64,000 bases of DNA from an uncultured Carboxylicivirga sp. (GTDB taxonomy: Bacteria; Bacteroidota; Bacteroidia; Bacteroidales; Marinilabiliaceae), in the NCBI GenBank assembly GCA_947503525.1, contig CANNEA010000002.1, forward strand, positions 1,178,001 through 1,242,000, read 5' to 3'. The position numbers were made by a program, and so were the translations under genes. Shown here piece after piece: positions 40,998 to 55,783 of this stretch; position 1 is the stretch's first letter; every line of letters begins with the position of its first letter. The notes beneath the pieces were generated by a model. That model was not told where the DNA came from. It worked only from the letters and a program-made list of their open reading frames with translations, and did not search any database.

Positions 40998-42527
40998 ATG
41001 TTTATGAAGCGATTGATTTTGTTATTTAAGCGTAAGAAAACGCTTTTTATCTTCCTTGCAGGATTCGCCTGCACACTTATTTTAATTTATCCTTTTAACA
41101 AGGCAGTATCTTATACAAGTACTGATAACTATTGTAATTCTTGTCATGTTCATGATCATGCTGAAGATAGCTGGCGCTTATCAGCCCACGTCAATAATAA
41201 AAGTGGTGTTGTTGTTCATTGTGTTGATTGCCATTTGCCACCAAAAGAAGAAGGTTATCTAAAGGCCAAAGCATATCATGGAGCAAAAGATCTTTATGGA
41301 TTTTATTTTAAAGATTCAGCCGATTATAAATGGGAATCGAAACGAACTGCTGAATTGGCCAATACTTTCACGTATGAATCATCATGTAAAAAATGTCATT
41401 CTAATTTGTACCCGGCAACCATAAGTACTAAAGGTGCTGATTCGCATATGCACTATGAGAATCATAATGAAACCATGACTTGTTTAAATTGCCACATGCA
41501 CACCGGACATTACAACCCAAATTATCAGCATGCGCAGAACCAATCATTTGGAGATGAAGAAGGACCAAAGGAGTTATTTACGGAAGCTACAACAATAAGC
41601 TCGTTTGAAAATTATGTTGAAAATATACCGGGTTCATCTGTAAGTTTTTCTATGGTCGCTATTGACGGTGGGGAGTTCTTGCTAGGCAGTCCTGAAGATG
41701 AGAGCTATAGAAGAAAAGATGAAGGACCGCAGCGAAAAGTAAAAGTGAGTCCGTTTTTTATGGCAGAAGTCGAAGTAAGCTGGGATGAATTTTTAGCTTG
41801 GTTTGGACAAACGGCCAGTGAAGGACGAAAGGAGGCTGAAACCAACTTGGAAGAAGTGGATGCCATTAGTGGTGCAACTCCTCCATGGGGTGCCCCAGAT
41901 CAGGGATGGGGTAAAGGTCAGCGCCCTGCAATTACAATGTCGCACCATGCAGCTGTTCAATATTGCCGTTGGCTGTCGCATGTTACAGGTAAAACATATC
42001 GATTACCAACAGAGGCTGAGTGGGAGTATGCAGCTCGTGGAGGAAAGCAAACAGCTTATCCATTTGAAGGATCACCAAAAGATTATTCAGAATTATCATT
42101 CTGGAATAAATGGTTAGGTGTAGACACTGCAGTTATTGGTCGATATGTAAGCTACAAAGCCAATTCGAATGGGAAGTCACAATTGGCGGATATGGTTAAA
42201 GCCAATCCATATGGTTTGAAAAATATGAATGGGAATGTTGCTGAGTTTTGTTCTGACTGGTATTCGGCAGATACTTACAAAAATTATAAAGAAGAAGAAC
42301 TTATTGATCCTAAGGGGCCATCACGAGGGCGTGAGCATGTTGTGCGTGGAGGATCGTTCCGTAGTGATGCCAGCGAGTTGCGTTCAGCTGCTCGTTCATA
42401 TACCGAAACTAAAAACTGGCTAAAAACAGATCCGCAAATGCCAAAGAGTATCTGGTGGTATTCCGATGCTAATCATGTTGGTTTTAGGGTGGTTTGTGAA
42501 GTGCCTGAAAATATTGAAATAAAATAA
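40998..42527 (+). CDS. Tetraheme NapC/NrfH-type cytochrome fused to an FGE-sulfatase-like domain
   Basis: This 509 aa protein has an N-terminal membrane anchor (about residues 14-31) and four CxxCH heme sites at 46-50, 75-79, 130-134 and 162-166, as in NapC/NirT/NrfH quinol dehydrogenases. A formylglycine-generating-enzyme-like domain follows from about 218 to 500, with IDGGEFLLGSPEDE, YRLPTEAEWEYAARGG, NMNGNVAEFCSDWY, VVRGGSFRSD and NHVGFRVVCE. The two catalytic cysteines of true FGE are replaced (Ser and Glu after GGSFR), so it is unlikely to modify sulfatases. It probably passes electrons between quinone and periplasmic partners, with the second domain as a docking or binding module. It opens the oxidoreductase cluster. 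Confidence 0.82.
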   Translation: MFMKRLILLFKRKKTLFIFLAGFACTLILIYPFNKAVSYTSTDNYCNSCHVHDHAEDSWRLSAHVNNKSGVVVHCVDCHLPPKEEGYLKAKAYHGAKDLYGFYFKDSADYKWESKRTAELANTFTYESSCKKCHSNLYPATISTKGADSHMHYENHNETMTCLNCHMHTGHYNPNYQHAQNQSFGDEEGPKELFTEATTISSFENYVENIPGSSVSFSMVAIDGGEFLLGSPEDESYRRKDEGPQRKVKVSPFFMAEVEVSWDEFLAWFGQTASEGRKEAETNLEEVDAISGATPPWGAPDQGWGKGQRPAITMSHHAAVQYCRWLSHVTGKTYRLPTEAEWEYAARGGKQTAYPFEGSPKDYSELSFWNKWLGVDTAVIGRYVSYKANSNGKSQLADMVKANPYGLKNMNGNVAEFCSDWYSADTYKNYKEEELIDPKGPSRGREHVVRGGSFRSDASELRSAARSYTETKNWLKTDPQMPKSIWWYSDANHVGFRVVCEVPENIEIK

Positions 42528-42563
42528 GCTAGATCCCAATAATAAGAGTTGCTTAAATACAAA

Positions 42564-43925
42564 ATGAATAAAATGAAGAAGAATATAGACCGAAGGAAGT
42601 TCATACAAAATGCCTCAATGGCAAGTGCTGTTGGAGCTCTGGCTTTAGGAGCATTAGGTTCATGTAAATCAGCAAAAACACCAGAGGAATTGGGTCTGCC
42701 TCCGTTAAGAAAAGCAGCTCCTAAGGGTAAAAAGTTAAAGGCCGGGCTAATCGGTTGTGGGCACAGGGGCACTGGAGCATTATTAAATTTTTTAAGCGCA
42801 GGACCGGATTTAGAAGTGGGTGCTCTGGGTGATGTTTTTCCAGAGAAAGTAGCATCAGTACGTGATCGATTGAGTAAATATAAGTTAAGTGTGCCGGATG
42901 ATAAGTGTTTTACAGGATTAGATGCTTTTCAGAAAGTAATTGATTCGGATGTTGATGTAGTTCTTTTGGCTACTCCTCCATATTTTCGTCCAGATCACTT
43001 TAAAGCAGCAGTTCAAGCCAAAAAACATGTGTTTATGGAAAAGCCTGTAGCAGTTGATTCGGTTGGTATTCGGTCGGTCATTGCTTCTGCCAGAGCTGCC
43101 AAACAAATGGGATTAAATGTGGTAACGGGAACACAGCGTCGTCATCAACGTGATTATCTTGCTTGCTATGAGCAAGTGGCTAATGGAGCTATAGGCCAGC
43201 CATTATCGGCAAAAGCCTTCTGGAATCAGGAACACGTATGGTTTCGTCGTCGTCAGGCAGGCTGGACTGATATGGAATATATGCTTCGCAACTGGAATAA
43301 CTTTTATTGGTTAAGTGGAGATCATATCCTGGATACACATATTCATAATATTGATGTGGTGAATTGGTTTATGGGTAAAACCCCATTGTCAGCCACAGGA
43401 TATGGAGGGCGTCATCGTCGTGAGACCGGAAATCAATTCGACTTTTTCAGTATTGATTTTAATTATGGAAATGGTTCTTTCTCCCATAGTATGTGCCGAC
43501 AGATAGATAATTGTTCAAATGGTGTGGGAGAAATGGTTATGGGAACAAAAGGTTATACCAATTGTCGCGATAAGATATTTGACCTTAATGGGAACATTAT
43601 TTGGCAATATCAATATCCTTTGGACAAAGAGGGGAATCCAACTACAAAAGTTAAAGTGAGTCCATATATACAAGAACATATCCACCTGGTAACAGCTATA
43701 CGCAGCAATATATATGTGAATGAAGGCGAACGAACAGCGCTTTCTAACTTAACCGCCATAATGGGACGAGAAGCTGCTTACACCGGGAAACAAATTACCT
43801 GGGATCAAATAATGAGTTCCAAATCGAAACTTGGACCGGATAAACTGGACATGAATACCGTATATGACGCGCCTGAAACACCAATACCGGGAACAGCGAT
43901 TAAGAACACTTCAAATTCGCATTAA
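42564..43925 (+). CDS. Tat-exported lipoprotein-type Gfo/Idh/MocA oxidoreductase
   Basis: This 453 aa protein has a twin-arginine signal (NIDRRKFIQNASMASAVGA) ending in a lipobox-like GALGSC. It then has a Rossmann fold starting GLIGCGHRGTGALL at about residue 62 and the family signature MEKPVA near residue 163, where Lys is the usual catalytic or cofactor-contact residue. His residues in DTHIHNIDVVNWF match the active-site helix. It should be folded with its NAD(P) in the cytosol and exported to the periplasm. The true start is the ATG at 42564 or 42573; a TTG at 42549 is rejected. It follows the cytochrome fusion by 36 bases. Confidence 0.88.
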   Translation: MNKMKKNIDRRKFIQNASMASAVGALALGALGSCKSAKTPEELGLPPLRKAAPKGKKLKAGLIGCGHRGTGALLNFLSAGPDLEVGALGDVFPEKVASVRDRLSKYKLSVPDDKCFTGLDAFQKVIDSDVDVVLLATPPYFRPDHFKAAVQAKKHVFMEKPVAVDSVGIRSVIASARAAKQMGLNVVTGTQRRHQRDYLACYEQVANGAIGQPLSAKAFWNQEHVWFRRRQAGWTDMEYMLRNWNNFYWLSGDHILDTHIHNIDVVNWFMGKTPLSATGYGGRHRRETGNQFDFFSIDFNYGNGSFSHSMCRQIDNCSNGVGEMVMGTKGYTNCRDKIFDLNGNIIWQYQYPLDKEGNPTTKVKVSPYIQEHIHLVTAIRSNIYVNEGERTALSNLTAIMGREAAYTGKQITWDQIMSSKSKLGPDKLDMNTVYDAPETPIPGTAIKNTSNSH

Positions 43926-44018
43926 TAAAGTTTAATGCTGATACATATTAAAAAATAAAAGCAGTTGTTGATCATTTTACATGCTAAAAGAGATAAATCA
44001 TAACTAACATATCATCCA

Positions 44019-45374
44019 ATGGATAATAAATCTTTAAATCGAAGAAGCTTTCTGAAAAGGGGACTGGTTGCTACGGCTGGAGCAGCTCTTTTTCCAAGTG
44101 TAATACCAGCATCCGCCATGGGGCGTAATGGTTTTGTGCCTCCAAGTGATCGAATTGTGATGGGGGCCATTGGAGTAGGTGGTATGGGACGTCATAATAT
44201 GAATCAGTTTTTAAAAAACAAAGCGGTTCAGTTAGTGGCGGTTTGTGATGTGGATGAAAGGCACAACAAAATTGCCAAAGACCTGATCAATAAGCAATAT
44301 GGTAATAAAGATGCCAGATCTTATAAGCTTTTTACCGAGATTCTGGAAAAAGAAAAAATGGATGCTGTTACCATGGCCTTGCCAGATCATTGGCATGGGA
44401 TCATTGGTGTGGCAACTGCTAAAAAAGGATTAGATATCTATGGTGAAAAACCATTGGCACGTACTATTCTTGAGTCGAGAGCCATTGTAGATGCGGCCAA
44501 CAAAAACAACATTGTATGGCAGACCGGAAGCTGGCAGCGATCAAGACCTAATTTTTACAAAGCAGCATTATTGGTAAGAAACGGAGTGCTAGGTAAAATA
44601 TCAAAGGTTGAAGTTGGCTTGCCTGATGGAAGAGCATCTGTTGGAATTAAAGGAATTCAAGCACCTCCGCCGGAAGTGGATTACGATTTATGGGTAGGTC
44701 CTGCACCTAAGGTCCCTTATCGTGGGATATTGCATTTTGATTGGCGATGGATGATGGATTATTCAGGCGGACAGTTAACTGACTGGGCTGGCCATCATGT
44801 TGATATTGCACATTGGGGATTAGATTACGATAAGATTGGTCCAAGCGAGGTGAAAGCTTCAGGTGTATTTCCGGTTGATGGTATTTATGATGTTCCTGTG
44901 GAATATTTGATTGAAGCGAAATATGAGACTGGTGTGGAAATGACCATCGCTAATGCCAATTATTTTATTGAGCGCAGAACTTCTAAAGAATGGAAGCGTG
45001 AAAAACAATGGACTACTGGAATGGGTACGACATGGTATGGTGAGCACGGTTGGATTCACGTAAGTCGTCATGGGATATGGGCGAGTAAGCCTGAGCTTTT
45101 GAAGATCGATGAAAAAGATCTGTCTTTGAAAATTTATAAGAGCGCAGATCATCATAAAAACTTTATAGAATGCGTTAAATCGCGACAAGAAACCATAACA
45201 CCTGCAGAAACAGCACATCGCTCAATAAGTGTGGCTTTGGTAGGCGAAATCGCAATGCAAACAGGAGAGAACTTAAAGTGGGATTATAGAAATGAACGTT
45301 TCACAAACAGTGAGTATGCAAATAAAATGTTACAACGTCCGTTCCGTTCACCTTGGAAATTACCTGAGTTTTAA
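44019..45374 (+). CDS. Tat-exported Gfo/Idh/MocA oxidoreductase
   Basis: This 451 aa protein has a twin-arginine signal (LNRRSFLKRGLVATAGAAL) with a probable cleavage site after PASA. The dinucleotide motif is GAIGVGGMGRHN, the family signature GEKPLA lies near residue 145, and the active-site region is DWAGHHVDIAHWGLD. The PDHWHG segment and the C-terminal RPFRSPWKLPEF are shared with Planctomycetes- and Bacteroidota-type exported Gfo/Idh/MocA proteins, some of which act on sugar C3 hydroxyls. The exact substrate is unknown. A 93-base gap precedes it; ThuA follows after 17 bases. Confidence 0.88.
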   Translation: MDNKSLNRRSFLKRGLVATAGAALFPSVIPASAMGRNGFVPPSDRIVMGAIGVGGMGRHNMNQFLKNKAVQLVAVCDVDERHNKIAKDLINKQYGNKDARSYKLFTEILEKEKMDAVTMALPDHWHGIIGVATAKKGLDIYGEKPLARTILESRAIVDAANKNNIVWQTGSWQRSRPNFYKAALLVRNGVLGKISKVEVGLPDGRASVGIKGIQAPPPEVDYDLWVGPAPKVPYRGILHFDWRWMMDYSGGQLTDWAGHHVDIAHWGLDYDKIGPSEVKASGVFPVDGIYDVPVEYLIEAKYETGVEMTIANANYFIERRTSKEWKREKQWTTGMGTTWYGEHGWIHVSRHGIWASKPELLKIDEKDLSLKIYKSADHHKNFIECVKSRQETITPAETAHRSISVALVGEIAMQTGENLKWDYRNERFTNSEYANKMLQRPFRSPWKLPEF

Positions 45375-45391
45375 CCTCTAATTTAAAAGCA

Positions 45392-46600
45392 ATGAAAAAT
45401 TATATATCCAAAATATTTAGTTTAGCCCTATTGGGGATAGTGTTCCTTAGTTCTTGTCAGGAAAAGAAACTGAAAGCTCTAATCGTGACCGGGCAGAATA
45501 ATCATAATTGGGAAGTTTCACATGATCTTCTTTCTAAAATATTGGTAAACAGTGAAACCTTCACTTGCGAAATTGCGACAAGTCCGGCAAAAGGCGAAGA
45601 CATGTCAGGCTTCAATCCAACATTTGATGATTTTGATGTTGTGGTATTAGATTACAATGGAGATGATTGGTCGGCTCAGACTCAAAAAGACTTCGAGAGC
45701 TTTGTGAAAAATGGTGGAGGTGTAGTTGTATATCATGCTTCCAGTAATAGTTTTCCAAATTGGGAAGCATTTAACCAAATGGCTGGCCTTGGTGGTTGGA
45801 ATGGTAGAAATGAGAAGTCAGGCCCATATGTATACTGGAAAAATGATGAAGCCTTTAGAGATGATTCTCCGGGTAAAGGTGGTACGCATGGACCTCAGCA
45901 TGAATTTATGGTTATTCATCGTCAACCTGAGCATCCTATTCTGAAAGGAATGCCAGAAAAGTGGATGCACAGTAAAGATGAATTATACTCTAAACTAAGG
46001 GGACCAGCTGAAAATATGACGGTATTGGCAACTGCTTATGCTGATCCTAAGAAAAAGGGAACCGGAAGACACGAGCCAATGTTAATGACCATTAAGTATG
46101 GTAAGGGAAGAATTTTTCATACGGCTATGGGGCATGTTGGTAAAGAACGACCAATAGCAGCTCAAAGTGCGGGTTTTATCTTAACTCTTCAAAGAGGTGC
46201 TGAATGGGCTGCAACCGGATTAGTAACTCAGGAGTTGCCTGAAGATTTACCTAATAAAGCGGTGCCCTTAATCCTGCATAATTATAAGTCGTATAGTTTA
46301 GATGAATTATTTCAGCGTGCTAAGAAATTTGAATACGGTAAGTCGCATAAGTATGTGAATCTGATTTCAAATCGTATTCGCATGGCAAGTGGAGATGCTG
46401 AAAAACTTAGTTTGTACGAAACAAAGATTATTGAAACTTTGGCATCAGATGCTTCGGTTGATGCAAAAAACTATTTATGTAGAGATTTAAGTTGGATAGG
46501 AAGTGCAAACGCTCTGCCTGTGTTGGAGGAATTGAAAGCAAATGAGGCCACAAAAGAAATGGCCAGTTTCGCAATCGAAAGAATCAATCAATCCAAATAA
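45392..46600 (+). CDS. ThuA-like lipoprotein with C-terminal HEAT-like helices
   Basis: This 402 aa protein has a lipoprotein signal (MKNYISKIFSLALLGIVFLSSC, shown in part, with Cys at 22). A ThuA domain at about 30-270 follows, with ALIVTGQNNHNWEVS, VVYHASSNSFPNW and GRIFHTAMGH, a class-I glutaminase-like fold linked to trehalose utilisation and often to 3-keto-sugar pathways. Residues about 280-402 form HEAT-like helices (ASVDAKNYLCRDLSWIGS, ALPVLEELK). Such ThuA proteins commonly neighbour exported Gfo/Idh/MocA and DUF1080 genes. The reaction is unproven. It sits 6 bases before the next oxidoreductase. Confidence 0.82.
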   Translation: MKNYISKIFSLALLGIVFLSSCQEKKLKALIVTGQNNHNWEVSHDLLSKILVNSETFTCEIATSPAKGEDMSGFNPTFDDFDVVVLDYNGDDWSAQTQKDFESFVKNGGGVVVYHASSNSFPNWEAFNQMAGLGGWNGRNEKSGPYVYWKNDEAFRDDSPGKGGTHGPQHEFMVIHRQPEHPILKGMPEKWMHSKDELYSKLRGPAENMTVLATAYADPKKKGTGRHEPMLMTIKYGKGRIFHTAMGHVGKERPIAAQSAGFILTLQRGAEWAATGLVTQELPEDLPNKAVPLILHNYKSYSLDELFQRAKKFEYGKSHKYVNLISNRIRMASGDAEKLSLYETKIIETLASDASVDAKNYLCRDLSWIGSANALPVLEELKANEATKEMASFAIERINQSK

Positions 46601-46606
46601 GCTATT

Positions 46607-47950
46607 ATGAATGAGTCACGAAGAAGTTTTTGCAAAAAGTCAGCATCCATAATAGCTGGTGTTGGCATGGCAGCAAGCATTCCGGTATTTGCCGGCTGTA
46701 GTAGAAACGATACCATTCGATTGGGATTTATTGGAGTGAAAGGGATGGGATTTTATAATCTACGTCAGTTTATCCAACAACCTGATGTAGAAATTGTAGC
46801 GCTTTGTGATGTTGATCAAAAGGTTTTGGATAAGCGTATTGATGAAACAAAAAAGCTTCACAAAAAGATTTATGACAATGGTTCTAAGCCATATACAGAA
46901 CCCAAAATAGAAGCCTACAAGGATTTCAGACAACTGCTCGACAATAAAGATGTGGATGCAGTTGTAATAGCCACGCCAGATCATTGGCATTTATTGATTA
47001 CAGCATATGCTTGTCAGGCAGGCAAGGATGTGTATGTGGAAAAGCCAATCGTGAATTCAATTGGTGAATGCATGGTTATGGAAAAAGTGGCCAAACGCTA
47101 TGGACGGGTTATTCAAGTTGGCCAATGGCAAAGAAGTGATTCGCACTGGCAGGATGCTATCCGTTATGTGCATAGCGGTCAGTTGGGTAAAGTCCGAAAG
47201 GTGAAAGCCTGGGCCTATATGGATTGGATTAACCCTGTTGCTAAATCTAATGCTGAAGTACCTATTGGTGTGGATTACAATATGTGGCTCGGACCAGCCC
47301 GTACCCGTGATTTTAATCCTTCACGTTTTCATTTTAATTTTCGATGGTGGTGGGATTATGCCGGTGGTTTAATGACCGATTGGGGTGTTCATCTCTTGGA
47401 TTATGCTTTATACGGGATGAAAGCTGAAACACCAAATTCGGTAATGACGATGGGTGGACGATATGCCACCGAAGAAGGAGCAATGGAAACTCCTGATACG
47501 CAAACCACCATTTATGAGTATGACAATTTTCTTATGCAATGGGAACATGCCATTGGTATTGGAAAAGGTCCATACAAACGAGAACATGGTGTTGCCTTTG
47601 TGGGTGATATGGGAACGTTGATTGTTGATCGTGGAGGTTGGGAAATTGTGCAGGAAAAAGCAGGAAAAGCAGCTGAGATACCTGCAGTGCCATTTACCAA
47701 AGGAGATGGAAAGGGACTTGCTAAGCATGTACGTAATTTTCTCGACTGTATTAAATCAGGAGATACACCAAATGCGTCTGCAGCAATTGGGACAAATATT
47801 GCGCGTGTATCTCATATGGGCAATGTAGCTTATCGTACGCAATCCAAGTTATTTTGGGATAAAGAGAATAATAAGTTTAAAGATAATGCAGCAGCTAATC
47901 AGTTGATCATGCCTCAATACAGAGCACCATGGACAATGCCTAATTTATAA
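46607..47950 (+). CDS. Tat-exported lipoprotein-type Gfo/Idh/MocA oxidoreductase
   Basis: This 447 aa protein has a twin-arginine signal (NESRRSFCKKSASIIAG) ending in the lipobox VFAGC. The Rossmann motif is GFIGVKGMGFYN, and YVEKPIV near residue 147 carries the family Lys. PDHWHLL and DWGVHLLDYALYG match the active site of the exported subgroup, and the end RAPWTMPNL parallels the gene at 44019. The two are probably distant paralogues acting on different positions or substrates. It is close to its neighbours on both sides (6 and 19 bases), so it belongs to the operon. Confidence 0.88.
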   Translation: MNESRRSFCKKSASIIAGVGMAASIPVFAGCSRNDTIRLGFIGVKGMGFYNLRQFIQQPDVEIVALCDVDQKVLDKRIDETKKLHKKIYDNGSKPYTEPKIEAYKDFRQLLDNKDVDAVVIATPDHWHLLITAYACQAGKDVYVEKPIVNSIGECMVMEKVAKRYGRVIQVGQWQRSDSHWQDAIRYVHSGQLGKVRKVKAWAYMDWINPVAKSNAEVPIGVDYNMWLGPARTRDFNPSRFHFNFRWWWDYAGGLMTDWGVHLLDYALYGMKAETPNSVMTMGGRYATEEGAMETPDTQTTIYEYDNFLMQWEHAIGIGKGPYKREHGVAFVGDMGTLIVDRGGWEIVQEKAGKAAEIPAVPFTKGDGKGLAKHVRNFLDCIKSGDTPNASAAIGTNIARVSHMGNVAYRTQSKLFWDKENNKFKDNAAANQLIMPQYRAPWTMPNL

Positions 47951-47969
47951 TCTAAAATTATTTGAAGTA

Positions 47970-48707
47970 ATGATGAATCATATTAAAATATTTTTCACTC
48001 TCCTTATAGGAGTTGTTTTTAGCGTTAACGTTTATGCCCAGAAGCCTGAAGATACTGAAGATTGGTCGCGTAAACCTGAAGTAGTTACGCCATCAAAGTA
48101 TGCAAAGACACCTTCTGATGCCATTGTATTATACGGCGGTAAAACGGATGCTGATAAGTGGGAACATGAAAATGGAGATGCTTTAAAATGGAAAACGGCT
48201 AAAGCAATGACTGTAGTTGCTAAGACCGGCGGCATTTATTCTAAGCAAGCTTTTGGTGATGTGCAGTTGCATATTGAATGGCGTACGCCTAAAAAGGTCG
48301 AAGGCAAAGGTCAAGGTAGAGGTAATAGTGGAGTGTTTTTAATGGGTAAGTATGAAGTGCAAATATTGGATTCATACAATAATGAAACTTATTACAATGG
48401 TCAGGCAGCAAGTATTTACAAACAGCACATCCCATTGGTTAACGCTTGTAAAGCACCTGGTAAATGGCAGACTTACGATATCTTTTTTACAGCACCAAAG
48501 TTCAATGCCGATCAATCCTTAAAAACTCCGGCTTATATTACTGTAATCCAGAATGGTATTTTAGTTCAAAATCATGTTGAATTAAAAGGCCCGACCGAAT
48601 ACGTTGGACAGCCTCAATACAAGTATCATGCTGATAAATTACCAATTCATTTACAAGATCATAATAATCCCACATCATTCCGAAATATTTGGATAAGAGA
48701 ATTATAA
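47970..48707 (+). CDS. Exported DUF1080 (3-keto-disaccharide hydrolase-like) protein
   Basis: This 245 aa protein has a signal peptide (about residues 1-23, ending NVYAQ) and one DUF1080 domain of concanavalin-like fold. Landmarks are GDVQLHIEWRTP, GNSGVFLMGKYEVQILDSY and the C-terminal PTSFRNIWIREL. Members of this family have been described as 3-keto-glycoside hydrolases or lyases that cut the glycosidic bond after oxidation at C3. Its position between exported oxidoreductases and an isomerase is what such a pathway predicts. It should act in the periplasm. Confidence 0.87.
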   Translation: MMNHIKIFFTLLIGVVFSVNVYAQKPEDTEDWSRKPEVVTPSKYAKTPSDAIVLYGGKTDADKWEHENGDALKWKTAKAMTVVAKTGGIYSKQAFGDVQLHIEWRTPKKVEGKGQGRGNSGVFLMGKYEVQILDSYNNETYYNGQAASIYKQHIPLVNACKAPGKWQTYDIFFTAPKFNADQSLKTPAYITVIQNGILVQNHVELKGPTEYVGQPQYKYHADKLPIHLQDHNNPTSFRNIWIREL

Positions 48708-48726
48708 CAAGCTAAAAGAATACGTT

Positions 48727-49569
48727 ATGAAAAAAATACTTATTGCTTTTACGATATTTATGGGGCTTTTGTCCTTTGAGGCAAGTGCTAAAAAGAAAGA
48801 TTCAATGGAAAAACATGGATGGAAACTAGCGGTTCAGGCATGGTCCTTTAATCGATTTACTTTTGCTGAAACTTTGGAATACTGTAATGAATTAGGATTA
48901 AAATACATTGAAATGTTCCCGGGTCAGGAGATTGGTGACGGAATTGAAGGTAAGACTCATTTTTCGATGTCTACTGAAACCAGAGAAGCAGTAAAAGCGC
49001 TTTTAGCGAAACACGATGTTGAACTTATTAATTACGGGGTTGTAAACTGTGATACTGAAAAAGAGTGGAAAAAGCTGTTTGAGTTTGCGGATGCCATGGG
49101 CATTCAGACAATAAATACGGAACCTGAATTTGATGACCTGTTATTGGTTGATGGATTGGCTAAGCAATATAAAGTGAATGTTGCTCTTCATAACCATGCT
49201 AATCCAACTCGTTATTGGAAGCCCGAAACGGTATTAAAATCAATTGAAGGCAAAAGCAAATACATGGGTGGAGGTTGCGATAATGGTCACTGGATGCGTT
49301 CTGGGATTCAGCCCTCATATGGTTATAATCTTCTGCAAGGTAATATCAAAACACTTCATTTTAAGGACATGAATGCTTTTGATGATCTGGATGCACATAC
49401 GGTACCTTTCGGTACAGGTGAGCACGATATAAAAAAATCACTTGTTCTACTAAAGCAGTTAAAGTTTAAAGGCGTTATTACAATTGAATATGAATACAAT
49501 TGGGAAAATCCTTTAGAAGATATTAAGCAGTCGGTTAATTACATTCGAAAGGTTGCTGAAGAAATTTAA
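48727..49569 (+). CDS. Exported sugar isomerase/epimerase-like TIM barrel (AP endonuclease 2 family)
   Basis: This 280 aa protein has a signal peptide (about residues 1-21, ending EASA) followed by a xylose-isomerase-like TIM barrel. Candidate metal ligands are the Glu of YIEMFPGQE, His in VALHNHANP, Asp/His in GGCDNGHWM and HFKDM, and Glu in ITIEYEYNWENP at the C-terminus. Being exported is unusual for sugar isomerases but common in 3-keto-sugar clusters. The reaction may be isomerisation, epimerisation or elimination/hydration of a keto-sugar. It follows DUF1080 by 19 bases. Confidence 0.83.
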   Translation: MKKILIAFTIFMGLLSFEASAKKKDSMEKHGWKLAVQAWSFNRFTFAETLEYCNELGLKYIEMFPGQEIGDGIEGKTHFSMSTETREAVKALLAKHDVELINYGVVNCDTEKEWKKLFEFADAMGIQTINTEPEFDDLLLVDGLAKQYKVNVALHNHANPTRYWKPETVLKSIEGKSKYMGGGCDNGHWMRSGIQPSYGYNLLQGNIKTLHFKDMNAFDDLDAHTVPFGTGEHDIKKSLVLLKQLKFKGVITIEYEYNWENPLEDIKQSVNYIRKVAEEI

Positions 49570-49622
49570 ACAAAAATTAGTGCCATCAGTGGTGAATGAT
49601 TAAAGTCCAAAATAATACAAGA

Positions 49623-51029
49623 ATGAAAAATATATCACGTAGAAATTTCCTGAAAACCTCCGGTGCTGTGGCTGCGGGAGCTATGATATTGCCTAATTTG
49701 ATAAGTTGTTCAAAAAATGGCATCGTCAACCTGGCCATTGTTGGTGTAGGGGGTAGAGGATATTCCAACTGGAACGGTCTTATCTCTGAATCTATCAATA
49801 AAGAAACGAAGGAAAGAGTTTTAAATCCTAATGTACGAATTGTTGCGCTTTGTGATGTAAGTGAGGAGATGCTCGCTAAGTCGAGCAAGCAACTTCCGGG
49901 TGTGCCTACCTTTAAGGATTTTAGAGTGATGCTTGATGAAATGCATCGTGATATTGATGCAGTTATTGTATCAACACCCGATCATACTCATTTTGCTGTG
50001 ACCATGGCAGCCATGGAATTAGGAAAACACGTTTATGTAGAGAAGCCTCTTGCTCATAATGTCTGGCAATTACGAACGTTAACAAAGGCAGCAGAATATT
50101 ATAATGTAATTAATCATCTTGGTAATCAGGGACATGCTTCTGATGGTATTCGTAATGTTAAAGAATGGTATGATTCAGGTTTACTTGGTGAGGTAAAAGA
50201 AGTTCATGCCTGGTTCGATGGACCAAATTTTAATGGGCCATATTTTGGAAAACCCGATGCTTACCCACCTCAAGCTCAGCCGGTGCCGGAAGGTCTGGAT
50301 TGGGATTTATGGTTAGGGCCGGCAAAGAAAAGGCCTTTCAATAAATGTTATGTGCCACGCAGATGGAGAAGTTGGTACGAATTGGGAAATGCTGAGTTGG
50401 GCGACTGGGCTTGCCATACTTTAGATGCACCATATTGGGCATTGGATTTGGGTTCACCAAATGTAGTTCAACCCCTTCATTCGAAACGTAACGAAGGCAT
50501 GCCAAGTGATATTATTACGGATGAATCCGTTCTCCGTTTCGAATTTGGTCAACGTGGAAACAAGGCTCCTGCAACATTAACCTGGTATGAAGGTGGTAAA
50601 AAGCCCGAAAACAGACCTGAGTGGTTAACACCAAAATTAGCTGGTAACGGAATGGTTATGGTTGGCGAAAAAATGTCGGTAATGACGGGCGGAAGACCAA
50701 ACGATGCAAGGTTAATTATGCCAGCTAAAGAGTGGGAAGCCTTTAAGAAAAAAGGATGGGAACAAACTATTCCGCGAATACCTGGGCAAAATCAATACAA
50801 GGAATTTATTAATGCAATACGTGGAGAAGGCCCAATGCCTGGTTCAACCTTTAAATATGGAGCAGGTTTAACAGAAATGGCACTTGTTGGTGTAATGGCT
50901 CAGCGCTTTGATAAGCGAATTGAATTTGATGCTGCCAACATGAAAGTAACGAATCACCCTGAATTAAATAGATACATTAAGGAAGAGGTGAGACCGGGCT
51001 GGCAATATGGTGAGAAACTATGGACATAG
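49623..51029 (+). CDS. Tat-exported lipoprotein-type Gfo/Idh/MocA oxidoreductase
   Basis: This 468 aa protein starts best at 49623 (MKNISRRNFLKTSGAVAAGA), which gives a Tat signal with the lipobox NLISC; an ATG at 49596 adds nine residues. The Rossmann motif is AIVGVGGRGYSN and the family signature is YVEKPLA near residue 145. PDHTHFA and GDWACHTLDAPYWAL form the active site. The LWLGPAKKRPFNKCYVPRRWR segment is typical of large exported members. It is probably the last of four exported oxidoreductases in the run, with 126 bases before the next gene. Confidence 0.88.
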   Translation: MKNISRRNFLKTSGAVAAGAMILPNLISCSKNGIVNLAIVGVGGRGYSNWNGLISESINKETKERVLNPNVRIVALCDVSEEMLAKSSKQLPGVPTFKDFRVMLDEMHRDIDAVIVSTPDHTHFAVTMAAMELGKHVYVEKPLAHNVWQLRTLTKAAEYYNVINHLGNQGHASDGIRNVKEWYDSGLLGEVKEVHAWFDGPNFNGPYFGKPDAYPPQAQPVPEGLDWDLWLGPAKKRPFNKCYVPRRWRSWYELGNAELGDWACHTLDAPYWALDLGSPNVVQPLHSKRNEGMPSDIITDESVLRFEFGQRGNKAPATLTWYEGGKKPENRPEWLTPKLAGNGMVMVGEKMSVMTGGRPNDARLIMPAKEWEAFKKKGWEQTIPRIPGQNQYKEFINAIRGEGPMPGSTFKYGAGLTEMALVGVMAQRFDKRIEFDAANMKVTNHPELNRYIKEEVRPGWQYGEKLWT

Positions 51030-51155
51030 TCTGGTTTTATCTGTAGTGTCAAAAATAATGGATAGATGATAAATCAGTATAATAAGATTACGTTTTCTCT
51101 TGAAGTATAAAATGTTTAGTAAGTAATCTTTAGTTAATGTCTTAAAAACAAAACA

Positions 51156-52157
51156 ATGAGTAGAAAAGTCACACTATTTACCGGTCAATGGGCCGATTTG
51201 GATTTTGAAGTAATGTGTCAAAAGGCAAAAAGCTTTGGTTATGATGGCTTAGAACTGGCTTGCTGGGGAAACCATTTTGAAGTGGATAAAGCTGATCAAG
51301 CCTATTGTGATGCGAAGTTAGCGATCCTTAAAAAATATGATTTGGAAGTATATGCCATTTCTACTCATTTGGTTGGACAAGCTGTTTGTGATCGGATTGA
51401 TGAGCGCCATCAAGCTATTTTACCCGATTATATTTGGGGTGATGGTGAGCCTGAAGGGGTAAGGCAAAGAGCCGCTGCAGAAGTTATTAAGACCGCAGAA
51501 GCCGGAAAAAGATTGGGTGTTAAAATTGTAAATGGTTTTACCGGAAGCTCAATATGGCATATGTTATACTCCTTTCCTCCTGCATCTCAAGAAATGATTG
51601 ATAACGGCTTTAAGGATTTTGCTGATCGTTGGACACCTATTATGGATGCATTCCAGAAACTGGATGTGAAATTTGGTTTGGAAGTACATCCTACAGAAAT
51701 CGCTTTCGATATTGCTTCAGCCGAAAGAGCGCTTGAAGCCATCAACTATCACCCATCATTTGGTTTTAATTACGATCCAAGTCACTTGGGTTATCAAGGC
51801 GTAGACTATGTGAAATTCATCGATAAGTTTGCTGAGCAAATTGTTCATGTACACATGAAGGATGCCGGTTGGAGTGATGTACCTGTTGAAGCTGGTGTTT
51901 TTGGAGGACATACCGATTTTGGTGATGCACGTCGTTTCTGGGATTTCAGAAGTATGGGCAGGGGAAATATCAATTTCGAAAAAATCATCCGTTCCCTTAA
52001 CAGGATGGCCTATACCGGACCACTTTCTGTAGAGTGGGAAGATGGAGCTATGGATCGCGAGCAGGGAGCCATTGAATCATGTGCTTTTGTAAAGCAGGTG
52101 GATTTTACGCCATCTAATCTGGCTTTTGATGCAGCCTTTGATAAAGAAAATCAGTAA
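51156..52157 (+). CDS. Cytosolic sugar phosphate isomerase/epimerase-like TIM barrel
   Basis: This 333 aa protein has no signal peptide and carries a full AP endonuclease 2 family barrel. The metal ligands are Glu in FGLEVHPTE near residue 173, Asp/His in [10 protein letters not shown], His in [10 protein letters not shown] and Glu in [11 protein letters not shown] near residue 293. Relatives include inosose dehydratase, keto-sugar and inositol pathway enzymes. It is the first cytosolic enzyme of the cluster and precedes the importer gene, so it may process the imported product. Confidence 0.87.
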
Positions 52158-52232
52158 ATCAAATTATAGTTAAGGAACAAAACAATAGTCTTTTGTTCTT
52201 TAACTCATATCTACTAATCTAAATCATCTTAC

Positions 52233-53567
52233 ATGGAAAAATCCATTAACAAATCCAGATTGTTCTTAGGAAGTTGCCTGGCCCTTCTTGTGACTTCACT
52301 AACCTTTGCAATGCGTGCTAAAATCGAAGAAGTTTTTGGGCCTGTCAGCGAAGGAGGAATATTTGGCTTGAGCAAAGAATCTATCGGCTGGGCATTTGGT
52401 CCTGCATTTTGGGGTTTCACAGTAGCAATGGTAGCCGGAGGTTTTCTTATTGACATAGTCAAAACCAAAACGGTAGTGTGGTCTGCTTTTATCTTGCATT
52501 TAATTGGAGCGGTGGCATTTATTTTGGCCAAGGACAAACAAACATTGTTCATCGCCAATATTTTTATTGGTTTAGGTAATGGCTGTGTTGAAGCAGCATT
52601 TAATCCTTTAATTGCTACGATTTATCCTAAAAATAAAACCACCATGTTGAATCGTTTTCATGTTTGGTTTCCCGGAGGTATAGTAATTGGTAGTTTGTTA
52701 GCTTATTTCATGATGGATACAATGGGTATCAACTGGCAGATATATATTGGAGTATTATTTGTACCTCTGGCCATTTATGGATTCTTGTTTTTCAGACAAA
52801 CAATACCTGAAACAGAACGTGTATCAAGTGGGATTACCTATAAAGGTATGCTGGATGCCATTGGGGCTCCGGTTACTTTAATTGCTTCCATGACTTTAAT
52901 GTTATTGCTTGCGATTAATATTGTAAAGTTACCTGAGGGGTGGATGTATCTTGCTGTTATTGGAGCCATCGTAGCGGTTTCTGCATTAGAGGCTTTGGTT
53001 ATTCGAAAGACGAGCATGATCTTTCCAATCATGTTTACTTTTATGTTGTTGACTGCTTCCACTGAATTAGTAACAACACAATGGGTTAATGCCTTGCTTT
53101 CGGGCGCTGGAGTTAGTCAGATGTTAATGCTTGCATTAATTACCGGCATTATGGCAGTAGGAAGATTTTTTGCAGGAGGTTTGGTCCATCGCTTAAATCC
53201 TGTTGGGGTATTATTGATGTCTTCTGTTTTTTCTGCTTTGGGTATATATGCATTAAGTATTGTTGAAGCGCCAGCCATGGTTATATTATCATCGGTAATA
53301 TTTGCTATTGGTGTAACTTACTTTTGGCCTACAATGTTGGGTTTTGTGGCAGAGTACATTCCTAAAAGCGGAGCATTAGGTTTATCTTTACTTGGCGGAG
53401 CCGGCATGGTTTCCGTCGCCATGTTCTTACCTGTAATGGGAAGAATCATGGAAGAGAATAATGAGAAAGTAGCTTTGCAAAGTATTGGTGCATTGCCGGT
53501 CATATTGATTATTGGTTTTCTTATTTTATACTCTGTGTATAAAAACAGAAAGCCGGAAAGTATATAA
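52233..53567 (+). CDS. MFS transporter (sugar-type)
   Basis: This 444 aa inner-membrane protein has about twelve helices. Features of the major facilitator fold include the loop 2-3 region GGFLIDIVKTK, GNGCVEAAFNPLIATIYP in helix 4, and the central cytosolic loop at about 190-215. It resembles sugar/cation symporters of Bacteroidota that are linked to Gfo/Idh/MocA clusters. It probably imports the periplasmic product, perhaps a keto-sugar or a simple sugar. The gap of 75 bases on each side is compatible with co-transcription. Confidence 0.85.
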   Translation: MEKSINKSRLFLGSCLALLVTSLTFAMRAKIEEVFGPVSEGGIFGLSKESIGWAFGPAFWGFTVAMVAGGFLIDIVKTKTVVWSAFILHLIGAVAFILAKDKQTLFIANIFIGLGNGCVEAAFNPLIATIYPKNKTTMLNRFHVWFPGGIVIGSLLAYFMMDTMGINWQIYIGVLFVPLAIYGFLFFRQTIPETERVSSGITYKGMLDAIGAPVTLIASMTLMLLLAINIVKLPEGWMYLAVIGAIVAVSALEALVIRKTSMIFPIMFTFMLLTASTELVTTQWVNALLSGAGVSQMLMLALITGIMAVGRFFAGGLVHRLNPVGVLLMSSVFSALGIYALSIVEAPAMVILSSVIFAIGVTYFWPTMLGFVAEYIPKSGALGLSLLGGAGMVSVAMFLPVMGRIMEENNEKVALQSIGALPVILIIGFLILYSVYKNRKPESI

Positions 53568-53641
53568 AGAACCATTAGGTATTGGTGCATGATAAGGAAT
53601 TGTTATGCACCTTATATCTTTTACAATAAAATATAAATATC

Positions 53642-54775
53642 ATGCAAAAGATAAAACTCGGAATGATAGGTGGTGGACTTGGAGCTTTTATTGGAGATGC
53701 TCATCGTCGTGCCTCACGTATTTGCAACGATTACCAACTGATTGGTGGTGTTTTTGATGTTGATTTCGAAAAAGGACAAGAATTTGCAAAACAGCAAGAT
53801 CTGGATTTAAATCGATGCTACGCAACAGTTGATTCTTTTATTGAAAGTGAGTTAGCATTATCAGATGTTGATAGAATTCAAGCTGTTTCTATTGTAACAC
53901 CTAATATGTTGCATTACGAATTTGCGAGTAAACTGCTTAAGGCTGGATTTCATGTCATTTGTGAAAAACCAATGACCTTTACTGTTGAAGAAGCCTTGGA
54001 CCTGAAAAACATCGTAGATAGCAGTAATCAAACTTTTGCTCTAACACACACCTACACCGGATATCCAATGGTTAGGCAAATGAAGGAAATTGTAAAATCC
54101 GGAGCTCTTGGTAAAATTCATCGAGTAGATGCACAGTACTATCAAGGCTGGGTGAATTCAATTATAGAAGGCACCGGATCAGGAATTACGGGAGTGTGGC
54201 GTTTAGATCCTAAGTACGCCGGAATGAGTAGCTGTATGGGCGATATTGGTGTACATGCCTTTAACTTGATAGAGTATACAACTGGTTTGGAAATTTCTAG
54301 TGTTCTTTCTGATTTAAATCCTGTTAAAGAGAATGTACAACTCGATTTAGACGGTACCGTTCTTTTACGGATGAATGATAATATAAAAGGAGTAATTCGT
54401 TCGAGTCAGGTTGCTGCTGGTGAAGAAAATAACCTGACGATTGGTATTTACGGTTCAGAGGCCAGTTTAAAATGGAGTCAGGAAGATCCTAATTTTCTTT
54501 ATATGTTGAGTGATACTGAGCCAACAAAAGTGTATAAACCTGCCCATGGATATAATACCGAATTTGCTGAAGCCAGTCATGTAATGCCATCAGGACATCC
54601 CGAAGGAATTTACGAGGCGTTAGGTAATATTTATAAAGGAGTTGCCAAATCCATTAGAGGAGAAGAATCTTTTGACGGGGAATTTCCTACAGTTGAAGAT
54701 GGTGTAAGAGGAATGAAGTTTATTAAATCTGTTGTTGAGTCAAATAGTAATAATAATAGTTGGATTGATTTATAA
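53642..54775 (+). CDS. Cytosolic Gfo/Idh/MocA oxidoreductase
   Basis: This 377 aa protein without signal peptide has the Rossmann motif KLGMIGGGLGAFIGDAHR, the family signature CEKPMTF near residue 105, and GDIGVHAFNLIEY as the active-site helix. It is of the size of inositol- and glucose-type dehydrogenases. As the last gene of the run, next to the importer, it could reduce an imported keto-sugar back to the sugar with NAD(P)H. A strong terminator follows. Confidence 0.88.
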   Translation: MQKIKLGMIGGGLGAFIGDAHRRASRICNDYQLIGGVFDVDFEKGQEFAKQQDLDLNRCYATVDSFIESELALSDVDRIQAVSIVTPNMLHYEFASKLLKAGFHVICEKPMTFTVEEALDLKNIVDSSNQTFALTHTYTGYPMVRQMKEIVKSGALGKIHRVDAQYYQGWVNSIIEGTGSGITGVWRLDPKYAGMSSCMGDIGVHAFNLIEYTTGLEISSVLSDLNPVKENVQLDLDGTVLLRMNDNIKGVIRSSQVAAGEENNLTIGIYGSEASLKWSQEDPNFLYMLSDTEPTKVYKPAHGYNTEFAEASHVMPSGHPEGIYEALGNIYKGVAKSIRGEESFDGEFPTVEDGVRGMKFIKSVVESNSNNNSWIDL

Positions 54776-54864: not shown

Positions 54865-55779
54865 ATGATATCCATAGTAATTCCGGTATTTAATGAAGCG
54901 GATATAATTGATGAGGTTATCGATCGATTAGTAAAGGCCGTTTCTGGTTTGGATGAATCATACGAATTGGTATTTGTGGATGATGGAAGTGCAGATGACT
55001 CTGTGGCCAATATTTTAAAGCAAAAAGACAAAAATCCACATCTAAAACTTATATCCTTATCTCGTAATTTTGGACATCAGGCAGCTATTACGGCAGGAAT
55101 GGAGCATGCTAAAGGTGAGTTTATAGGCCTAATAGATTGTGATTTGCAAGATCCACCGGAGTTGATTGAGCGAATGTATACCACCTTAAAGTCGGATCAA
55201 TTTGATGTTGTTACCGGGTTTAGAAAGGGGAGAAATGAGAGAGAAGGCAAGAGATTATTAATAAAGTTCTTTCACCGTTTATTTAGGCATACCAGCGGGT
55301 TAAGTAATATTGAGCAAACCGGTCATTTTTCAATGATGAATCGTAAGGCTATGGTAGCCTTACTGGCAATGAAGGAAAAGAACAGGTACCTTCCGGGTTT
55401 AAGAAGTTTTATGGGTTTTCGACAAACTCAGATTGAGTATGTCAGGCAGGAGCGCATAGCAGGTGAATCGAAAATGTCGATAATGCAATTGTTTAAATTG
55501 GCCGGGGATGCTTTGTTTTCATTCTCAAAATTTCCTTTGCGTTTTTGTCTTTACCTGGGACTAATCGGAATTTTGGTCTCTTTTATAGCCGGTTTACATG
55601 CATTGGTTTCTAAAGTGCTTGGTTGGGCACCCTTGGGATGGTCATCAACAACTTTAAGTATTTATTTCCTGGGATCGATTCAACTCACTTTTATGGGAGT
55701 TCTTGGAGAATACATATTCCGTATATATAAGGAATCACAGAACAGGCCATTATATTTTATTAAAGATATTTACGATTGA
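54865..55779 (+). CDS. Family 2 glycosyltransferase (DPM1/GtrB-like)
   Basis: This 304 aa protein has the GT-A nucleotide-binding start SIVIPVFNEADIIDEV, VDDGSADDS and the metal motif LIDCDLQDPPEL. Two C-terminal membrane helices lie at about 225-250 and 265-290. This build is that of enzymes that make polyprenyl-phosphate glucose or mannose as donor for GT-C enzymes. The next gene, four bases downstream, is a GT-C type protein, which supports that reading. The acceptor glycan or protein is unknown. Confidence 0.9.
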   Translation: MISIVIPVFNEADIIDEVIDRLVKAVSGLDESYELVFVDDGSADDSVANILKQKDKNPHLKLISLSRNFGHQAAITAGMEHAKGEFIGLIDCDLQDPPELIERMYTTLKSDQFDVVTGFRKGRNEREGKRLLIKFFHRLFRHTSGLSNIEQTGHFSMMNRKAMVALLAMKEKNRYLPGLRSFMGFRQTQIEYVRQERIAGESKMSIMQLFKLAGDALFSFSKFPLRFCLYLGLIGILVSFIAGLHALVSKVLGWAPLGWSSTTLSIYFLGSIQLTFMGVLGEYIFRIYKESQNRPLYFIKDIYD

Positions 55780-55783
55780 TTGG

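Follow-up and report, generated by a model that had tools for sequence, protein, structure and literature searches.

How is the cofactor of an NAD-dependent oxidoreductase renewed when the enzyme works outside the inner membrane? For such exported enzymes, we know of no accepted periplasmic route of cofactor renewal except exchange between substrates. The question is raised by a stretch of 64,000 nucleotides from an uncultured Carboxylicivirga sp. (contig CANNEA010000002.1, positions 1,178,001 to 1,242,000; hereafter the window), in which a gene for a tetraheme cytochrome fused to an FGE-fold domain is followed directly by a gene for a Gfo/Idh/MocA oxidoreductase, here called GFO1, at the head of a cluster of eleven genes. 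The initial annotation had treated the whole cluster as a keto-sugar oxidation pathway tied to the cytochrome. This view is partly supported: 27 of the 40 stretches compared around such fusions lack any pathway gene, and the constant partner of the cytochrome is GFO1, not the whole pathway. The cytochrome is paired with the exported oxidoreductase in 38 of 39 cytochrome-bearing genomes, which makes the question of cofactor renewal directly testable with two purified proteins.

The pairing was established by a NapC/NirT family search of 295 genomes of the window's order, with one genome per species. Matches above 80 bits numbered 44, of which 42 lie in frames of at least 480 residues and are fusions and two are cut by a contig end, where the fusion is not seen; nearly all weaker matches fall in shorter, NrfH-size frames, and a few weak partial ones in frames near 500 residues were left out. 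By genome, 38 have both the cytochrome and GFO1, one has the cytochrome only (G154, whose match is one of the two cut by a contig end), one has GFO1 only (G160) and 255 have neither; the p value of this co-occurrence calls for caution because relatives among the 295 genomes are not independent, and some GFO1 genes could be missed by a search that scored at most five candidates per genome. The 38 genomes with both genes span 19 families. At least five GFO1 relatives occur in each of two genomes (G270 and G038), and the family is expanded in places.

Neighbourhoods were taken for 40 of the 42 fusion places (one on a 3410-base contig and one other were left out) and compared with 20 control loci of NrfH-type NapC genes, 13 of them from genomes that also have a fusion; mean stretch lengths are similar (684,331 bases in 40 fusion stretches and 355,185 bases in 20 controls). 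GFO1 lies inside 38 of the 40 fusion stretches compared with 0/20 controls, and it is directly downstream of the fusion in 35 of the 40 places of the order and in 10/10 from a second genome collection. Among the remaining five, three have GFO1 nearby in another arrangement, a fourth has it about 9 kilobases downstream, still on its contig, and the genome of the fifth has copies elsewhere, on different contigs. All 20 controls encode a four-heme CxxCK protein as in NrfA, and none has GFO1 or a 3-keto pathway gene. Any of the other cluster genes (GFO2 to GFO4, ThuA, DUF1080, the two TIM barrels of the window, MFS and GFO5) are found near 13/40 fusions and 0/20 controls, and since pathway genes are missing from most fusion stretches, the exported Gfo/Idh/MocA genes other than GFO1 (GFO2 to GFO4) count as optional companions of the cytochrome. 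The linkage of the cytochrome to one oxidoreductase is far above control, so that the conserved linkage proposed by the initial annotation as its own test holds for GFO1 but is not a constant feature of the other three exported Gfo/Idh/MocA proteins. Alignment A1 contains 37 of 41 cluster members and alignment A2 contains 33 of 40.

The genes concerned are listed below, with domain calls from Pfam and export signals assigned by eye from the translations of the open reading frames rather than by a signal predictor.

40998..42527, plus strand: NapC/NirT-type tetraheme cytochrome fused to an FGE-fold domain (Pfam Cytochrom_NNT and FGE-sulfatase; CxxCH at residues 46, 75, 130 and 162)
42549..43925, plus strand: GFO1, Tat-type lipobox-bearing Gfo/Idh/MocA oxidoreductase (Pfam; RR and lipobox Cys by eye)
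44019..45374, plus strand: GFO2, Tat-type soluble Gfo/Idh/MocA protein, BT_2158-like (RR without lipobox by eye; 152.7 bits)
45392..46600, plus strand: ThuA-domain lipoprotein (Pfam; lipobox by eye)
46607..47950, plus strand: GFO3, Tat-type lipobox-bearing Gfo/Idh/MocA protein, BT_2158-like (RR and lipobox Cys by eye; 169 bits)
47970..48707, plus strand: exported PF06439 (DUF1080) protein, by family a probable 3-keto-glycoside cleaving enzyme (Pfam; Sec-like N-terminus by eye)
48727..49569, plus strand: exported xylose-isomerase-like TIM barrel (Pfam AP_endonuc_2; Sec-like N-terminus by eye; relative of 3p6l, 225 bits)
49596..51029, plus strand: GFO4, Tat-type lipobox-bearing Gfo/Idh/MocA protein (RR and lipobox Cys by eye; 309.8 bits with the BT_2158 family)
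51156..52157, plus strand: TIM barrel without export signal, relative of 2-hydroxy-3-keto-glucal hydratase (Pfam AP_endonuc_2; 8ro4 154 bits, 2zds 400 bits)
52233..53567, plus strand: MFS transporter (Pfam)
53642..54775, plus strand: GFO5, Gfo/Idh/MocA protein without export signal, probable 3-keto-sugar reductase by analogy with an Agrobacterium operon (Pfam)
54865..55779, plus strand: GT2 glycosyltransferase (domain scan; recurs with the PMT-type gene near the cytochrome-GFO1 pair)
55703..57799, plus strand: PMT-type membrane glycosyltransferase with TPR repeats (domain scan; recurs with the GT2 gene)
38264..40774, plus strand: LamG-containing protein of 836 residues that by eye has a membrane segment and a C-terminus of cytosolic appearance (upstream of the cluster)

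We propose, with a probability of roughly 45%, that GFO1 and the cytochrome-FGE protein form a two-subunit redox module in the periplasm, in which sugar is oxidised by GFO1 and electrons pass to menaquinone through the tetraheme part, and which is set here beside a 3-keto-glycoside pathway. Outside the inner membrane, GFO1, with bound NAD(H), would convert a sugar-type alcohol into a ketone; the FGE-like domain would serve as a dock for GFO1 or for the substrate of GFO1, and electrons would reach the menaquinone pool by way of the tetraheme NapC-type part. Placed beside this module in the window genome, the exported BT_2158-like dehydrogenases would oxidise C3 of the glycoside and the DUF1080 enzyme would then cleave it; the MFS protein would import the product, the hydratase-like TIM barrel (51156) would make a 3-keto-sugar and GFO5 would reduce it. 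The observations underlying the proposal are gene content, the conserved pairing, two cytochrome families on the same domain, the catalytic residues of GFO1 and the missing copper-cysteine pair; from these we infer complex formation, electron transfer and its direction, the substrate and the order of the pathway genes.

The heme part of the fusion has the hallmarks of NapC/NirT/NrfH proteins, with an N-terminal membrane anchor (a helix predicted at residues 2-40 in the structure model) and four CxxCH motifs in a NapC/NirT domain. Cytochrom_NNT covers residues 12-175 (PF03264, 100 bits) and FGE-sulfatase covers residues 218-470 (PF03781, 145 bits) of the 40998 product, and its four CxxCH motifs are invariant across 37 aligned fusion rows. 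By its motifs the cytochrome part is a distinct branch of the NapC family, because the first heme motif reads CxxCHxH in 37/37 fusions compared with CxxCHxM in 20/20 NrfH controls; the NrfH-type Met after the first heme motif is lacking from the fusions. Identity with NrfH was rejected on this motif and on the rarity of an NrfA neighbour (1/50 fusion stretches). The single fusion stretch with an NrfA-like CxxCK protein (L039) has, besides, a separate four-heme open reading frame of NrfH size. The window's own genome contains a second NapC-family gene of ordinary NrfH type, beside an NrfA-like CxxCK protein (L207, G000:C3:917500-936500).

By its conserved residues GFO1 retains the features of an active enzyme. 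It has a Rossmann fold, the EKP motif and a conserved His in the C-terminal domain, the last two of which we take to be catalytic features of Gfo/Idh/MocA proteins; in the GFO1 alignment the RR pair occurs in 80/81 rows, and the EK pair (E164, K165) and H266 each occur in 81/81. The structure model has a mean pLDDT of 86 and its first structural match by E-value is RgNanOx, with inositol dehydrogenases, the Caulobacter aldose-aldose oxidoreductase (TMt 0.80, rank 10) and glucose-fructose oxidoreductase among the other matches. In sequence comparison inositol dehydrogenases rank first among solved relatives (66.8 bits), and the score with the BT_2158 family (NF058561) is 25.3 bits.

The FGE fold of the second domain is indicated by the PF03781 score and by structure comparison. 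In copper FGEs the copper-binding cysteine pair near the C-terminus forms a C-x4-C motif. This pair is absent from all 88 aligned FGE rows, with C-x4-C in none; in the RGG..AAR stretch, 62 rows have no cysteine, 25 have one and one has two, with none in the window protein. A role in sulfatase maturation was rejected on two grounds: the domain lacks the copper-cysteine pair, and none of the eleven genes was called as a sulfatase. In a model-based structure search the closest solved fold of the FGE domain is PvdO (TMt 0.77). According to PMC6206403, PvdO is periplasmic and needed for the last oxidation of pyoverdine; the purified protein was without detectable cofactor and inactive, an electron transport partner was considered possible and the electron route was left unresolved.

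The FGE-GFO1 pair extends beyond the order and beyond the NapC cytochrome. A second genome collection was scanned with the fusion alignment. Among the best 80 matches, out of at least 559 relatives, were 10 further fusions, every one from a Bacteroidota record, and numerous FGE proteins that have no NapC part. Further places were taken from other Bacteroidota (20 of 39 above 280 bits), from a sample of the phylum of L099 (Verrucomicrobiota, 12 of 18, one of which is the genome of L099 itself) and from a sample of the phylum of L101 (Planctomycetota, 16 of 35). An FGE clade with the motif DPQxPKSxWW is set apart by score in Bacteroidota (at least 281 bits vs at most 248 for other FGE proteins). 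Without NapC, this clade precedes a GFO1 relative in 18/20 places of other Bacteroidota, 33/47 of the second collection (including one Acidobacteria record and the three Verrucomicrobiota places L087, L099 and L123) and 11/16 of the Planctomycetota sample. Across all examined places GFO1 is directly downstream in 107/145, and in 62/95 of those without NapC. One apparent natural FGE-GFO1 fusion (L084) was rejected: its 827-residue frame lacks the FGE motif, an independent FGE match is found immediately upstream of GFO1, and the long frame is therefore spurious, in a region rich in G+C.

Two cytochrome families (NapC/NirT and PSCyt1) became fused to the same FGE domain, because the fusions carry NapC by Pfam and the heme domain is PSCyt1 in all four proteins scanned among the heme-bearing non-NapC FGE proteins. 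An in-frame heme motif precedes the FGE domain in 11/95 places without NapC, which belong to Verrucomicrobiota records or to the Verrucomicrobiota and Planctomycetota samples, and GFO1 is next in 3/11 of these. A quick-method tree of the FGE domain was built from 13 NapC-fused rows (one in every four, with the window added), 83 of the 84 heme-free rows and all 11 with PSCyt1-type heme, with rows having short matches or internal stops dropped beforehand. The NapC-fused rows form one clade (SH-aLRT 100), and for the PSCyt1-fused rows 6 label changes are required, no fewer than 4 of them by starred branches; one of the label changes may be false because L123, labelled as without heme, is cut by a contig start. 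Heme in frame with FGE and no GFO1 directly downstream is found at L089, L091, L098, L109, L172, L173, L174 and L175, which come from records of Verrucomicrobiota and from the sample drawn around L099; the heme domain is PSCyt1 in L091 and L174, the two of these that were scanned. In Flavobacteriaceae-like genomes a subgroup of the FGE clade (L082, L117, L159 and L160) also lacks GFO1 beside it. In the one locus scanned from this subgroup (L160:8698-15213), the FGE clade member lies amid YceI, ApbE, a PSCyt1/PSD1 protein and DUF1501, surroundings that hint at electron transfer.

A broader extension of the proposal is somewhat unlikely: the PvdO-like FGE fold without copper cysteines might serve generally as a relay between exported NAD-binding Gfo/Idh/MocA oxidoreductases and c-type cytochromes, with NapC recruited in the window's order (Sunxiuqinia, Maribellus, Tannerella and Parabacteroides records) and PSCyt1 in Verrucomicrobiota and Planctomycetota. 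If true, it would connect an NAD-dependent enzyme beyond the inner membrane to respiration, something for which no precedent is known to us, and would suggest where PvdO sends its electrons.

Several observations weigh against a module that oxidises sugar and feeds menaquinone, and they lead to different alternatives. Some concern direction and fold. NapC-family proteins normally oxidise quinol, which favours electron flow the other way; the heme region is modelled too poorly (block pLDDT 38-87) to judge how far the hemes lie from their partners; and a sequence profile places the FGE domain nearer to copper FGEs (115.6 bits) than to PvdO (92.2 bits). In the alternative that survives best, although it is unlikely, menaquinol would reduce the tetraheme domain and the FGE-GFO1 unit would act as a periplasmic reductase with a keto-sugar or similar compound as electron sink. 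The quinol-fed habit of the NapC/NirT family agrees with such reverse flow, as do fusions in records of Tannerella and Parabacteroides, which are anaerobes, whereas the location of the module beside genes that fit a catabolic 3-keto pathway, a heme-1 motif unlike that of NrfH (His in all fusions vs Met in all controls) and a closest fold, PvdO, that is needed for an oxidation all argue against it.

Other observations concern whether electrons leave GFO1 at all. The main weakness of the sugar-oxidising module is that no obvious chemistry would take hydride from NADH to heme, because Pfam called neither a flavin-binding domain nor any other hydride-to-one-electron domain in GFO1 or in the fusion. 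The fused cytochrome is not essential to the FGE-GFO1 pair, because 59/62 pairs without NapC have no in-frame heme motif. In addition, 8/11 of the heme-bearing non-NapC FGE places have no adjoining GFO1; and in the Verrucomicrobiota sample GFO1 adjoins FGE in 0/12 although a heme motif is in frame in 4/12. The 27/40 fusion stretches without pathway genes likewise count against it. Aldose-aldose oxidoreductase and glucose-fructose oxidoreductase are exported enzymes that hold their cofactor tightly. GFO1 could be redox-neutral in the same way, exchanging hydride between substrates while FGE only anchors or presents and the cytochrome serves localisation or an unrelated reaction. We consider this quite unlikely: the resemblance of the GFO1 model to these two enzymes (behind RgNanOx, first by E-value) and the many heme-free pairs speak for it, but two Pfam cytochrome families fused to the same domain are hard to explain without an electron role. 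It is improbable that periplasmic sugar transfer by the GT2-PMT pair supplies what GFO1 and the cytochrome then oxidise in modifying a surface glycan, with the catabolic genes as later neighbours, for although these two genes accompany the fusion in 7/50 stretches and 0/20 controls and the stretches L055, L060 and L074 lack both DUF1080 and the hydratase relative, 43/50 fusion stretches are without the pair and the window has all of the inferred catabolic genes.

The other cluster genes suggest a 3-keto-glycoside pathway beside the proposed redox module, as the initial annotation had supposed; the supposition is backed by BT_2158 relatives below the family cut-off, by the DUF1080 protein and by a hydratase relative that had gone unrecognised. 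With a cut-off of 750 bits for the BT_2158 glycoside 3-dehydrogenase family (NF058561), GFO2, GFO3 and GFO4 all fall short, with GFO4 the nearest of the set. The 47970 product scores 132.4 bits with PF06439 (gathering score 26.8), a family now named '3-keto-disaccharide hydrolase'. The 51156 product aligns with the solved hydratase 8ro4 over residues 8-325 of 333 (E 4.5e-44) and is thus a sequence relative of 2-hydroxy-3-keto-glucal hydratase. Its 400-bit relative 2zds is named a putative DNA-binding protein, probably a misnomer. GFO2 to GFO4, the DUF1080 protein, the hydratase relative, the MFS protein and GFO5 would form a coherent route of oxidation, cleavage, import, hydration and reduction, with the steps presumably in that order. 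Another TIM-barrel type (two families) occurs in 18/40 fusion stretches vs 0/20 controls, and those inspected carry Tat-like N-termini by eye.

All eleven co-directional genes of the initial annotation are present as open reading frames on the plus strand (40998-54775), separated in order by gaps of 21, 93, 17, 6, 19, 19, 26, 126, 75 and 74 bases; the co-directional run continues past 54775 into the GT2 and PMT-type genes. The family assignments are borne out by Pfam apart from one part of the supposed ThuA-HEAT lipoprotein (45392), which has the ThuA domain and, by eye, a lipobox but no HEAT repeat reaching E 1e-3. The GFO1 open reading frame (42549) begins with TTG, and an internal ATG may be the true start. 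A scan for terminator-like hairpins, which found 19 sites vs 12.4 expected, placed one of 14 pairs, called on both strands, at about 58180 after the PMT-type gene and another of 12 pairs at 53584 inside the cluster. Matches to a Bacteroidota-type promoter pattern are at chance level in the window (4 vs 5.03 expected), with none between 40998 and 57799, and inverted repeats looked for at three intergenic gaps were not found. The LamG protein upstream (38264-40774) may be a membrane-bound regulator. Its relatives occur near 3/50 fusions, upstream in L060, L068 and L074, in the last of these on the opposite strand.

A full-text literature search of open-licence papers returned no description of the cytochrome-FGE/GFO1 pairing. 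The conserved pairing suggests an unrecognised bacterial link from sugar chemistry outside the cell membrane to respiration. It also hints at a function for widespread FGE-like proteins without the copper-cysteine pair, which are easily misread as sulfatase maturation factors, and may bear on PvdO, the electron route of which is described as unresolved in PMC6206403.

Comparison with known systems places the pair among several partial counterparts. NrfH/NapC quinol dehydrogenases share the N-terminal helix and four CxxCH motifs in one NapC/NirT domain; they differ in that NrfH has CxxCHxM whereas the window protein has CxxCHxH and a fused FGE domain, and an NrfA-like CxxCK protein adjoins 20/20 NrfH controls compared with the single fusion stretch noted above. 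PvdO is the closest solved fold to the FGE domain and is likewise periplasmic, with an oxidation of unresolved electron route, but it has no cytochrome fusion (5hha, 286 residues) and another gene context, and the FGE domain is nearer to copper FGEs by sequence. The Agrobacterium tumefaciens operon for glycoside C3 oxidation and beta-elimination (AtOGE, AtHYD; PMC10628242) shares a TIM-barrel hydratase relative and a Gfo/Idh/MocA reductase, and preliminary evidence there puts the hydratase between the beta-eliminase and a glucose-making Gfo reductase. It differs in using a flavoenzyme for the first oxidation and a TIM-barrel eliminase, steps that exported Gfo/Idh/MocA proteins and DUF1080 would perform in the window. 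The Bacteroides thetaiotaomicron 3-keto-glycan pathway shares BT_2158-related exported Gfo/Idh/MocA enzymes and a DUF1080 protein; it differs in that the BT_2158-like proteins of the window are far below the family cut-off and the constant partner, GFO1, is more distant still. We take that pathway to be the BT2156-2160 region, including a TIM barrel and a transporter, and to our knowledge the set has no cytochrome. LacABC-type glucoside 3-dehydrogenases consist of a GMC flavoprotein catalytic subunit and a cytochrome subunit. Respiratory-chain-linked periplasmic sugar oxidation is already a known kind of system through LacABC with DUF1080 in Caulobacter and Pedobacter, which, according to PMC9007349 (where BT2157 is also mentioned), shares with the window periplasmic glycoside C3 oxidation beside DUF1080, a transporter, epimerases and a reductase. 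LacABC differs from the window in its GMC flavoprotein, since Pfam called no GMC domain among the eleven genes, where the oxidoreductase is of the Gfo/Idh/MocA family and the cytochrome is a tetraheme NapC type fused to FGE. Pairing a Gfo/Idh/MocA enzyme with a NapC cytochrome that is fused to FGE seems to be a new form of periplasmic sugar oxidation.

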